A DNA stretch of 51,359 nucleotides from assembly GCA_023132365.1 (NCBI GenBank), contig JAGLYJ010000002.1, forward strand, positions 1 to 51,359, given 5' to 3'. Source of the stretch: Mycoplasmatota bacterium. Its GTDB lineage: Bacteria; Bacillota_I; Bacilli_A; Izemoplasmatales; Hujiaoplasmataceae. The notes under the pieces were generated by a model, which was not told the origin of the DNA, did no database searches, and saw only the letters and a list, made by a program, of their open reading frames with translations. This document shows, one piece after another, positions 12,492 to 51,036 of this stretch. Each line of letters starts with the position of its first letter. Position 1 is the stretch's first letter. The translations under genes and the position numbers were made by a program.

Positions 12492-13796
12492 ATGAAAAAA
12501 ATAATATTAAGTTTAAGTCTGTTGGTTGTGACTTTCGGGTTTGTTGGTTGTAATATTGGTACATTTACTGATGAACCAACAACTACTGCAACTAGTACAG
12601 AGGCGCCAACAACTTATACAACAACGATACCAGCAATAACTTCAACAACTTTAGATGAAAACATGATTATCTCTGAAATTTATAACTTGATTTACGAGGA
12701 TTTATATGATGAAATCAAAGCTGAAGTTATAGAAAATATATCTCAAGAAAGATTTGATCAAATTTATCAACAGGTTTTATCAGATTTGAGAAGTGATATT
12801 GAAAGTGGTTCAATAACATTGACTGCAGAAACAGTTGTAGAAATGATTTTAAACATCGAACAAAACTCAGCCAACTCTGTAGTTGGTATTATAGCTTATG
12901 ACGCTACTGGAGCTGGTTTGCAAACTGGTTCAGGTGTGGTATACAAACATGTCGGTGATAAATACTATGTAGTAACTAATGAACATGTTGTACGTGACGG
13001 AATCTCTATTGATATATATTTTGAAGATGGCTCAACAATAAGTGCTAACCTTATAGGCGTAGATGATCTAGTTGATGTTGCAGTACTATCGTTTATTTCT
13101 AGCGAAACATATGAAGTAAGTAATTTTGCTGATAGCTCTCAAGTTGCCAAAGGTGATATAATTTTAGCGGTTGGGCATCCACAAGGGTTTGATTTTTATG
13201 GGAGTATTACAATGGGAATCGTGTCCGGATTAGATAGATATTTTGATATTGATGGCGATGACATAAATGATATGTTCGTTAATTATATTCAACATGACGC
13301 AGCAATAAACAGTGGCAATAGTGGTGGTGCGTTATTTGATATTTACGGCGATGTTATAGGGCTTAATGTTATTAAAATTAGCGCTACAGATGTTGAAGGA
13401 ATGGGTTTTGCTATTCCAAGCAACTTAGTTGCTGCTATATGCAGTGATATTGAGGTATATGGCGTTTCTTTACAGAAACCCGTACTTGGTATCAATTTCT
13501 TAGAGCTAAGGGGACACATCGATTATTTAGTTAATACTATTGGGGCATCAATACCTAATGGGGTGACAGACGGATTTTATATATATTCAGTTGTTGCAGG
13601 TGCAAGTTTTGATGGTTATGTAGAAGCGGAAGATATAATTGTTAGAATTGGTGATGTTGATTTAACTACAGCTGAAGATTTTGTACTTTATTTTTCCAAA
13701 TATTTAGTGGGTGATACTATTTCTATATCGCTTTATAGAAACGGTACACTATTAACATTTGAAGATATTGAATTAAAAGCAAAGGTGGATGATTAA
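12492..13796 (+). CDS. HtrA/DegP-like trypsin-fold serine protease with PDZ domain, predicted lipoprotein
   Basis: Lipobox GFVGC; His (TNEHVV), Asp (VDVAVLSF), Ser (NSGNSGGALF) triad; Thr-rich linker. Confidence 0.88.
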   Translation: MKKIILSLSLLVVTFGFVGCNIGTFTDEPTTTATSTEAPTTYTTTIPAITSTTLDENMIISEIYNLIYEDLYDEIKAEVIENISQERFDQIYQQVLSDLRSDIESGSITLTAETVVEMILNIEQNSANSVVGIIAYDATGAGLQTGSGVVYKHVGDKYYVVTNEHVVRDGISIDIYFEDGSTISANLIGVDDLVDVAVLSFISSETYEVSNFADSSQVAKGDIILAVGHPQGFDFYGSITMGIVSGLDRYFDIDGDDINDMFVNYIQHDAAINSGNSGGALFDIYGDVIGLNVIKISATDVEGMGFAIPSNLVAAICSDIEVYGVSLQKPVLGINFLELRGHIDYLVNTIGASIPNGVTDGFYIYSVVAGASFDGYVEAEDIIVRIGDVDLTTAEDFVLYFSKYLVGDTISISLYRNGTLLTFEDIELKAKVDD

Positions 13797-13797
13797 T

Positions 13798-15132
13798 ATG
13801 AAGAAAGCTTATATATTTATTGGATTTCTTTTATCTATTTTTACCATCTTAGGTATAAACAATTTATTGAGTAATAATAGTTTAGAAGCAGTTGAAACAA
13901 CGACAATAACTGCAACTACAACTACAACCGTAACGCCTACAACTGACTATAGTGAATTAGTAAGTCAAATATATGAAAGCATTTATGAAGATATTTATGA
14001 AGACATTTATCAAGATGTATTGAATGAATTAAATGATGAATTTTATAATCAAATCTATTTGCAAGTTCAAAATGATCTTGTGAATCTTATTGATCAAGCT
14101 GAATTTAGTATATATCTAGATAAATTCCAACAAGATATTTATGGTGTTGTGGATTTATCTGAAAATAGTGTATTTGGAATAACTGCTTTTAATGATATAG
14201 AAGGAAGTGTTGGTACTGGAGTTGTATATAAATACGACAGTATTAATGAACTTTATTACATCGTTACAAACTATCATGTTGTTGAAGGTGCTACAAATTA
14301 CAAAATTCAATTTGAAGATAATTCAAATGTAGAAGCAAATTTGATTGGGTATGATGCAGTAGTTGACATTGCTGTATTAACATTTAGTAGTGTAGATTTA
14401 CCTGCAGTTGTAAATGTAGCTGCTTTAGGTGATTCAAGTGCAATTAATGTTGGTGAATTTGTAGTAGCTGTAGGAAATCCACAAGGATATGATTTCTATG
14501 GATCAGTATCGCTAGGAATAGCTTCTGGGTTAGCAAGAGAAGTTGATTCTAATAGATACATAAAGTATATTCAGCATGATGCCGCAATTAATAGTGGCAA
14601 TAGTGGTGGACCAATATATAATTTGTCCGGTGAAGTTATCGGAATCAATGTTTTGAAATATGCTACTGTAGATATAGAAGGAATGGGATTTGCAATTCCT
14701 ATTGATCTAGTAAAAGAAGTAACAGAGAGAATCGAAAATGATCAGATTCCTTTAGATACAATTATGCCTAGATTAGGTAGTAGCTTTTATTCAGTTAGTG
14801 ATATAATTGCAGGTGATGAAATTTCAATTAGCGATATGACAATTGATGGTATCCTAGTTGAAAATAAACAAGTTTCTTTACCTACTGGGATAACTGAAGG
14901 AATTGTCGTAAGAACTGTTGATGATAATTTAGCTTTAGATACAGTCCTTAAAGGTGGAGATTTAATAGTAAGAATATATGATGCTGAATTAACCAATTTA
15001 AGCAGTATGGAAGATTATCTATATGATAATTTCTTTGCTGGAGATTCTGTAACATTATATTATTACGATTATCGTTTATTAACAAATTCATATGAATCAT
15101 CATTATCTTCAGTTACAATAACATTAAAATAA
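13798..15132 (+). CDS. HtrA/DegP-like serine protease with PDZ domain, predicted signal-anchored paralog
   Basis: TNYHVV / VDIAVLTF / NSGNSGGPIY triad; same architecture as preceding gene; N-terminal hydrophobic segment without lipobox Cys. Confidence 0.88.
   Translation: MKKAYIFIGFLLSIFTILGINNLLSNNSLEAVETTTITATTTTTVTPTTDYSELVSQIYESIYEDIYEDIYQDVLNELNDEFYNQIYLQVQNDLVNLIDQAEFSIYLDKFQQDIYGVVDLSENSVFGITAFNDIEGSVGTGVVYKYDSINELYYIVTNYHVVEGATNYKIQFEDNSNVEANLIGYDAVVDIAVLTFSSVDLPAVVNVAALGDSSAINVGEFVVAVGNPQGYDFYGSVSLGIASGLAREVDSNRYIKYIQHDAAINSGNSGGPIYNLSGEVIGINVLKYATVDIEGMGFAIPIDLVKEVTERIENDQIPLDTIMPRLGSSFYSVSDIIAGDEISISDMTIDGILVENKQVSLPTGITEGIVVRTVDDNLALDTVLKGGDLIVRIYDAELTNLSSMEDYLYDNFFAGDSVTLYYYDYRLLTNSYESSLSSVTITLK
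13972..14019 (+). repeat. Short in-frame 12-nt tandem repeat encoding (Y-[EQ]-x-[IV])n
   Basis: TATGAAAGCATT TATGAAGATATT TATGAAGACATT TATCAAGATGTA. Confidence 0.75.
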
Positions 15133-47818: not shown

Positions 47819-48193
47819 ATGATATTCTTATTTTTTGATGAGCCAACCTACTTAGACTGGTTAAATAAAAATTTTTGGTGGCCAGTTATTCTTTGTGTGC
47901 TAATAGTGCTTATTGGTTTTTACTTTATTTATGTTCATAGGCCAAAACCAAAACTTAAACCATTATCTGAAGAGGAAATAAGTCTTATTATAAACTTATT
48001 TGGTGGTGAAGCTAACATTAAGGGTGTAAGTAAAGAAGGATCACGATATAGTTTTATATTAAAAAATGTAGAAAAATGTAATTTAGAAAAGATTAAAGAT
48101 TTGGGTGCAACCGGAGTCTTTGTTTCAGGAAACGCTGTTAAATTAATTTTTCCTTTTAATGGTGATGTAATAATGAATAAATTTAGTTTGTAG
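47819..48193 (+). CDS. Membrane-anchored PTS EIIB (glucose-type)-like protein lacking the phospho-Cys
   Basis: N-terminal TM; SLIINLFGGEANIKGVSKEGSRYSFILKN...IKDLGATGVFVSGNAVKLIF matches the EIIB pattern FGGKENI..DACxTRLR..LGAxGVxxxGxxVQxIF. Confidence 0.8.
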   Translation: MIFLFFDEPTYLDWLNKNFWWPVILCVLIVLIGFYFIYVHRPKPKLKPLSEEEISLIINLFGGEANIKGVSKEGSRYSFILKNVEKCNLEKIKDLGATGVFVSGNAVKLIFPFNGDVIMNKFSL

Positions 48194-48208
48194 AACGGAG
48201 GAATTTAT

Positions 48209-48475
48209 ATGATTGTTGGAAAATACAAGATTACTTATGAAAATGGGTTACATGCTAGACCAGCAACAAGACTTGTCTCTAAAGCAAATAGTTTTCAGTC
48301 TGAGATGATTTTAGAGTTTAACGATAGAAAAGTAAATCTAAAATCTATTATGGGAGTTATGTCGCTTGGAGTACCTGCAAACAAGAATATAAAGATTTCT
48401 TTCAACGGCAAGGATGAAGAGGATGCTTATAAAGCAATCTCTAGAGTGATTAATGATATTAATGATATGAAGTAA
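48209..48475 (+). CDS. ptsH: Phosphocarrier protein HPr
   Basis: NGLHARPAT (His15) and NLKSIMGVMSLGV (Ser46). Confidence 0.94.
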   Translation: MIVGKYKITYENGLHARPATRLVSKANSFQSEMILEFNDRKVNLKSIMGVMSLGVPANKNIKISFNGKDEEDAYKAISRVINDINDMK

Positions 48476-49796: not shown

Positions 49797-49806
49797 TCGT
49801 TTTATT
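49778..49806. terminator. Convergent terminator overlapping both 3' ends
   Basis: AAACGACTAAtaatTTAGTCGTTTT. Confidence 0.7.
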
Positions 49807-50797
49807 TTCTTCCTAATCCAATTTTCCTTTTACATTTACGCATTTTCTTAAACGCATAGTTAGAAGCAGTTTCTCTACCGCGATCTAAAATGTCTTGAAG
49901 TTCTTGGGATTTGATTAATTGTCCATAGTTTTCTTGAATTGGTGATAAAACTTTAACAATTTCATTACCTAGGTCTTCTTTAAATTGCTTATAATTTTGT
50001 CCAGCATATTGTGTGACAATGTCCTCAATGTTCCTATCTGCAATACTTGCATAGATAGTCAACAGATTAGCTAATCCTTTTTGATTTATAGGATCATATT
50101 TTACAATACCGATAGAATCAGTTACTGCTGATTTTATTTTTCTTTTTATGGCAGCTTCATCATCGAATAAAGAAATATATCCTTTATCATTTTCATCTGA
50201 TTTAGACATTTTCCTGTCGGGATTTTGTAAATCCATAATTCTAGCACCAACTTCAGGAATAATTGGGTCAGGAACTATAAAGAAATCGCCATAAGAATTA
50301 TTGAATCTATTTGCAATGGTTCTACTTAATTCTAAATGTTGTTTTTGATCATCACCAACTGGTACATAATCAGCATCATAAAGTATGATATCAGCTGCCA
50401 TTAATGCAGGATAAGTAAATAAAGAAGCAGTAATTGATTTCTCCTGTTTACTCACTTTATCTTTAAACTGGGTCATTCTTTCTAATTCTCCCATATATAC
50501 ATTTGATTGCAATATATATCCTAGCTCAACATTTTGAGGAATCTCAGATTGAATATATAAAACTGTTCTATCTTTATCTAACCCGCAGGCAATATACATA
50601 GCTGCAATATCCAATGTTCTTTTTCTTAATTCACTAGGTACTTGACGTACAGTAATTGCATGCAAATCAGCAACAAATAAGTAAAACTCACAATCAGACA
50701 TTTTCTTCTGAAGTTTTACAAATTGTTTTATTGCACCTAGATAATTTCCTAGGGTTAATGTTCCTGTAGGTTTAATACCTGAAAGTATTCTTTTCAT
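49802..50797 (-). CDS. trpS: Tryptophanyl-tRNA synthetase (start M at the MKRILSG position more likely than the upstream ATGs)
   Basis: SGIKPTGTLTLGNYLGAI (HIGH-like), DRKMSKSDEND (KMSKS). Confidence 0.95.
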   Translation of the reverse strand: MKRILSGIKPTGTLTLGNYLGAIKQFVKLQKKMSDCEFYLFVADLHAITVRQVPSELRKRTLDIAAMYIACGLDKDRTVLYIQSEIPQNVELGYILQSNVYMGELERMTQFKDKVSKQEKSITASLFTYPALMAADIILYDADYVPVGDDQKQHLELSRTIANRFNNSYGDFFIVPDPIIPEVGARIMDLQNPDRKMSKSDENDKGYISLFDDEAAIKRKIKSAVTDSIGIVKYDPINQKGLANLLTIYASIADRNIEDIVTQYAGQNYKQFKEDLGNEIVKVLSPIQENYGQLIKSQELQDILDRGRETASNYAFKKMRKCKRKIGLGRK

Positions 50798-50818
50798 TTC
50801 CATCATTCCTTTCAAAAA

Positions 50819-51022
50819 AAAATCGCCCTTATAAAAGGACGATTATTAACCGTGGTACCACCTTAGTTCTAGTAATATACTAGCACTTAAGCCCTTAACG
50901 CAGGCAACGGGTGTGATTAACACCACTCAATGGTCCATTCATATAGTTTGTTTTAGAGTTCACACCAGCCACTCTATCTCTTGATTTTAAAACTATATTA
51001 CTATTCCAAATCATCGTTTTAC
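50819..51022 (-). promoter_or_regulatory. T-box leader (tRNA-Trp responsive) upstream of trpS
   Basis: Minus strand AACTAAGGTGGTACCACGG, GAA-TGG-ACC specifier region (TGG = 50935-50937), terminator CGTCCTTTTATAAGGGCGATTTTTTTT. Confidence 0.93.
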
Positions 51023-51036
51023 TAAATAAAATTATA

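Follow-up and report, generated by a model that had tools for sequence, protein, structure and literature searches.

The open reading frame at positions 47819-48193 of the analysed DNA encodes a short, membrane-anchored protein whose EIIB-like domain lacks the phosphoacceptor cysteine. That this protein is non-catalytic is well supported, and it is probably a docking adaptor, in which a phosphotransfer-dead EIIB, tethered by one N-terminal helix at the cytoplasmic face of the membrane, would receive a cytosolic protein. We infer this tethering function, with FtsY, HPr or another protein as the putative partner. The window, meaning the whole stretch of 51,359 nucleotides, is contig 59 of a 1.29-Mb assembly (G000) that is 78% complete. 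Its relevant features are the following.

47819-48193, plus strand: membrane-anchored, Cys-less EIIB-like protein (orphan EIIB of the MG_129 type), 124 aa; profiles, alignment, AlphaFold2 and Foldseek.
47876-47935, plus strand: predicted transmembrane (TM) helix, residues about 20-39; AlphaFold2 helix 20-39 and sequence.
47972-48172, plus strand: EIIBGlc-like domain, residues 52-118; profile matches, alignment and fold.
48035-48037, plus strand: GAA, Glu73, in the catalytic-cysteine column, with Cys in no family member; alignments.
48044-48046, plus strand: CGA, Arg76, the Arg of the EIIB "TR" motif, with R or K in 85 of 86 members; alignment.
48209-48475, plus strand: HPr (ptsH), 88 aa, with His15 and Ser46; PF00381, E = 1.2e-26.
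49802-50815, minus strand: trpS, 1.6 kb downstream of the EIIB-like gene.

The frame, which runs from ATG to TAG, gives a gap-free HMMER alignment of residues 52-118 with E. coli EIIBGlc (E = 1.1e-4), where Glu73 falls under the catalytic cysteine and Arg76 under the arginine of the TR motif. The PTS glucose IIBC models of NCBIfam match the protein at E = 2.7e-7 and 1.2e-6, below their curated cut-offs, and TIGR00826 (EIIB_glc) matches at E = 9e-5 with 22.7 bits against a curated cut-off of 45.75 bits. PF00367, which the first-pass annotation had proposed as the check on the cysteine column, did not report the window protein; this profile spans only 34 residues around the cysteine, and the column is confirmed by the EIIBGlc alignment. 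Some homologues do exceed the curated cut-off of PF00367, unlike the window protein; among 93 aligned members it matches 34, and TIGR02002 (glucose IIBC) matches 90. The AlphaFold2 model, built on a 93-row alignment, has EIIB topology at a mean pLDDT of 86.7, and its best PDB matches in Foldseek are EIIBGlc in 1o2f, 3bp3 and 3bp8 (TM 0.75-0.81 on the target). The likeness to glucose-type EIIB that had been read by eye, with Glu in place of the catalytic Cys and the motif arginine kept, is thereby borne out by both alignment and predicted fold.

The single N-terminal TM helix of the earlier reading is likewise recovered in the model, at residues 20-39 or thereabouts. The basic segment RPKPKLK follows directly after it, which by the positive-inside rule would place the EIIB domain in the cytoplasm. 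The earlier observation that no EIIC lies nearby extends to the whole of G000, in which neither PF02378 (EIIC) nor PF00367 has a match; because the assembly is 78% complete, this absence is provisional. A promoter search returned sites no more numerous than in shuffled sequence.

The window protein was used to search 150 related genomes, of which 111 matched, some through canonical EIICB proteins. Reading of 90 loci and removal of four Cys-bearing EIIBs left 86 short proteins from Bacilli, none of them with Cys in the catalytic column, which is occupied by Glu (27), Asp (18), Lys (10), Ser (6) and other residues. After mollicutes were added, in a set where a few genomes are represented twice, no stand-alone family member has Cys there, and Thr becomes common once more of these genomes are included. 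Since the cysteine is missing throughout the family, Glu73 is not an isolated mutation, and the family lost its phosphorylation site when it arose or close to that time. The phospho-dead site proposed at first pass therefore stands; no conserved Cys was found elsewhere in the loop, nor any close homologue with a Cys. The idea of a phosphomimetic site survives in part: Glu or Asp fills the column in 45 of the 86 proteins and in 27 of the 31 from the window's own family (f1), but K, I, V or S in many other members and Thr in many mollicutes mean that it is not a general rule.

The acidic residues in those 45 members would also suit a working phosphocarrier in which Glu73, or Asp, carries an acyl phosphate. 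This is highly unlikely, given that many other members have K, I, V, S or T in that column, that no EIIC was found in the window's assembly and that the gene persists in genomes without EI. The loss of the catalytic residue and a divergent sequence, with a mean column identity of 25% in the family alignment, could be taken as marks of a decaying, functionless EIIB left beside ptsH. Decay is very hard to credit against intact frames in more than 100 species from many families, a conserved core in which N66 and G99 are nearly invariant, a confidently predicted fold, and retention in strongly reduced genomes, that of M. genitalium included.

Most members have a single N-terminal TM helix. Family f10 has a longer, multi-helix N-terminus, with frames of about 220-240 aa in L030, L032, L035, L036, L038 and L041; in this variant, several hydrophobic stretches precede the Cys-less EIIB domain, and HPr follows. 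At the f10 loci L099 and L100, a 3-hydroxyisobutyrate-dehydrogenase-like gene comes after HPr. A single-protein scan of a named genome collection identified one named relative, the metagenome-assembled genome SZUA-431 (Bacillota). A stand-alone, TM-anchored, Cys-bearing EIIB lies directly upstream of HPr and EI in G141 (L097:4408-4917). It was considered as an ancestral intermediate and rejected, as the domain tree grouped it with canonical EIIBs (support 0.83) and outside the Cys-less family; on account of this placement, it may represent a parallel case. A literature search returned nothing on "orphan EIIB" or Cys-less membrane EIIB except PMC13047044 (MG_129) and PMC8895549 (M. hominis).

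The gene order around the protein differs among families. In the window, an intact ptsH with His15 and Ser46 starts after a 15-bp gap, as reported at first pass, co-directional and in the same frame, and the two proteins are probably co-expressed in this lineage. The linkage recurs in f1, f3, f10 and f12, at 62 of the 64 loci from these families, with an ATGA stop/start overlap in 19, and an operon kept in four families suggests a real connection to HPr in those lineages. In the 22 loci read from the remaining families, ptsH is never adjacent. The conservation of Glu and of the ptsH linkage among relatives, which the first pass had proposed to check, is partial: Glu is the commonest residue in its column, and the linkage is a property of four families but not of the others. 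There, the gene follows NAD kinase in f11, f28 and M. genitalium, as identified with Pfam; judged from the starts of the open reading frames only, NAD kinase is apparently also adjacent in f20 and f25 and near in f15. Genes for a spx-like protein and trpS are often near the NAD-kinase-linked gene, and trpS is found close by in both the ptsH-linked and the unlinked arrangement (window, f3, f11, f17 and M. genitalium). The EIIB-like gene overlaps or abuts a transketolase gene in f5 (L104, L114) and f18 (L103), with no adjacent ptsH. Two further observations concern the window itself: a T-box leader lies upstream of trpS at 50832-51023 on the minus strand (Rfam RF00230, E = 8.6e-28), and two adjacent, overlapping HtrA/DegP-like protease genes were recognized by eye from their translations at 12492-13796 and 13789-15132.

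The operon speaks in favour of a PTS-signalling adaptor, one that would bind HPr, P-Ser46-HPr or EI N-terminal proteins at the membrane and so report energy or carbon status. The acidic residue of the 27 f1 members would fit such a role, as would the HPr kinase detected in 33 of the 34 f1 genomes and the Ser46 present in every linked HPr. In the canonical PTS, HPr passes its phosphate to EIIA and not to EIIB, so that a direct contact between HPr and EIIB is not expected. The lack of adjacent ptsH outside the four families and the many genomes in which the gene remains although EI, HPr kinase or HPr is missing also weigh against it, and as an account of the whole family it is rather improbable. 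The sensory or adaptor role in PTS signalling suggested at first pass thus retains some ground in the ptsH-linked lineages but does not serve as a general role, whereas its broader element, an adaptor rather than a transporter, is supported.

Searches for EI (PF05524), HPr kinase (PF07475) and EIIC (PF02378) across the same 150 genomes revealed a second change within f1. EI was undetected in seven genomes of this family that carry the gene (G011, G014, G018, G021, G027, G030 and G032), and in exactly these seven the linked HPr has Gln (L012, L014, L015, L017, L019) or Asn (L020, L021) at position 15; the other 24 f1 genomes have His15 in the linked HPr. The association between His15 loss and EI absence gives a Fisher P of 3.8e-7 if the genomes are treated as independent, the seven falling in two genera, and the loss perhaps reflects two events. 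Ser46 is intact in these seven HPr proteins and HPr kinase was found in all seven genomes. The loss of His15 with retention of Ser46 implies that HPr can act only through Ser46 in the EI-less f1 lineages; consequently, phosphotransfer from HPr cannot be the function of the EIIB-like protein there.

Two EI-like proteins are encoded in the window's assembly, one of 239 aa at L091:1439-2158 (contig 56) and one of 243 aa at L092:1147-1878 (contig 62). They comprise only PF05524 and PF00391, the N-terminal HPr-binding and mobile domains, with no PEP-binding domain, and the apparent active His lies in NQHSGIIAR and NCSHGAILAR, respectively. Similar short frames occur across the family, and in the nearest relatives (G002-G004) the sole PF02896 matches resemble pyruvate phosphate dikinase.

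Across all the families, the protein is not confined to genomes with HPr and EI, and it occurs where neither is detectable. Among 61 near-complete genomes that carry it, in lists compiled by hand, EI is absent in 22, from eight families, and both EI and HPr kinase went undetected in 15, from seven families. Of the 79 f17 mollicute genomes sampled, which measure 0.4-1.3 Mb, 78 have the protein; in hhalign, the f17 alignment matches that of the window family with 98.2% probability (E = 4e-14). All 15 sampled genomes of the mollicute genus g51 have it too, and neither EI nor HPr was detected in them; the fold predicted for the g51 protein is again that of EIIB (TM 0.87 against the 3bp8 EIIB chain). 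One g51 genome of 665,445 bp (G184) is taken here to be that of M. hominis PG21, and PF00381 found no HPr in it. The published description of the M. hominis PTS, which lists annotated genes for HPr and EIIB and no others (PMC8895549), agrees with this result for EIIB and conflicts with it for HPr. The protein is absent from f2 and several f3 genomes. Retention of the family where the PTS is missing indicates that another job is most likely, probably that of holding a partner protein at the membrane.

A candidate for this partner comes from M. genitalium. In a single-contig genome of 580,076 bp, which we take to be that of M. genitalium G37, one gene encodes a protein of the family (HMM E = 3.7e-15); NAD kinase lies on one side of it and an HD-domain gene, presumably RNase Y, on the other. 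The order of genes is trpS / spx-like / nadK / EIIB-like / HD-domain gene, and we assume this locus to be the MG_129 position. On the evidence of profile, fold and synteny, the window protein is a homologue of MG_129 and most likely its orthologue. An AlphaFold3 screen predicted an interface between MG_129 and FtsY, the SRP receptor, and one crosslink was reported between the M. pneumoniae orthologues, MPN_268 and FtsY; moonlighting of MG_129 was suggested for M. genitalium (PMC13047044). The wide retention of the family without EI suggests that a non-PTS role predates the mycoplasmas.

These data raise the possibility of an SRP-receptor tether, a special case of the docking adaptor, in which FtsY would be brought to the membrane by this protein in most of the Bacilli and mollicutes that carry it, a role comparable to that of the eukaryotic SR-beta membrane subunit. 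The screen and the crosslink favour it, and near-universal presence in the 79 small mollicute genomes would be expected of a housekeeping function. On the other hand, FtsY is universal and the EIIB-like protein is not, being absent from f2 and several f3 genomes, and ftsY was not noticed among the neighbours identified in the loci read. An FtsY with its own anchor in genomes that lack the protein was also considered and rejected: the FtsY frames of f2 are no longer than those of carriers (about 327-332 aa), and these lengths give no sign of compensation. The tether to FtsY in particular is thus a tentative reading, if a somewhat better one than PTS signalling.

For the docking adaptor in general, we propose that the protein descended from the EIIB domain of a glucose-type permease, the acceptor Cys having been lost at the point where the family arose or close to it. 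The single N-terminal helix would then hold the dead domain on the inner face of the membrane, where it may dock a cytosolic partner, and the ancestral role would lie outside sugar transport. FtsY is the best-documented candidate for this partner, on thin evidence, and HPr is the putative partner to which the operon in four families points. More speculatively, Bacilli might have co-opted the dead EIIB at an early stage as a general tether that serves some housekeeping process at the membrane, possibly one involving FtsY. The family would then have outlived the PTS in the several lineages that lost this system entirely, and would persist in near-minimal genomes; we regard this scenario as possible but doubtful.

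On the proposed reading, a phosphocarrier domain ceased to be catalytic near the root of its family and has survived the transport system from which it came. The ptsH operon, together with the parallel loss of His15 and EI, shows which PTS components a genome can do without even as the membrane EIIB stays. MG_129, a small unexplained protein of a minimal genome, thereby gains a wide and testable context, and such genes should not be annotated as sugar transporters.

Among known systems, the EIIB of glucose-type PTS permeases (PtsG; TIGR00826, PF00367) shares the fold, the sequence core and the TR-motif Arg with the window protein, which differs in lacking the catalytic Cys, in having its own TM anchor and in an assembly where no EIIC was found. 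In the E. coli EIIBGlc-Mlc complex, the EIIB is a working catalytic domain, and it is the unphosphorylated form that binds Mlc. This complex (PDB 3bp8) is a precedent in that an EIIB domain held at the membrane recruits a protein from the cytosol; in contrast, the site of the window protein cannot be phosphorylated on Cys.

M. genitalium, unlike the window case, has other PTS genes. Its MG_129, with MPN_268 described as "orphan PTS EIIB" (PMC13047044), resembles the window protein in its length of about 120 aa, its N-terminal hydrophobic helix, its Cys-less EIIB domain, its membership of the same profile family (HMM E = 3.7e-15) and the trpS gene in its neighbourhood. In contrast to the window gene, MG_129 follows nadK and is not beside ptsH, and it has Thr in the Cys column, the Arg being lost as well. 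B. subtilis Crh is an HPr-like protein with Gln at residue 15 that acts through Ser46. The HPr of the seven EI-less relatives is similar to it in that residue 15 is Gln or Asn and Ser46 is preserved, and it is encoded beside the EIIB-like gene, whereas the HPr of the window keeps His15.
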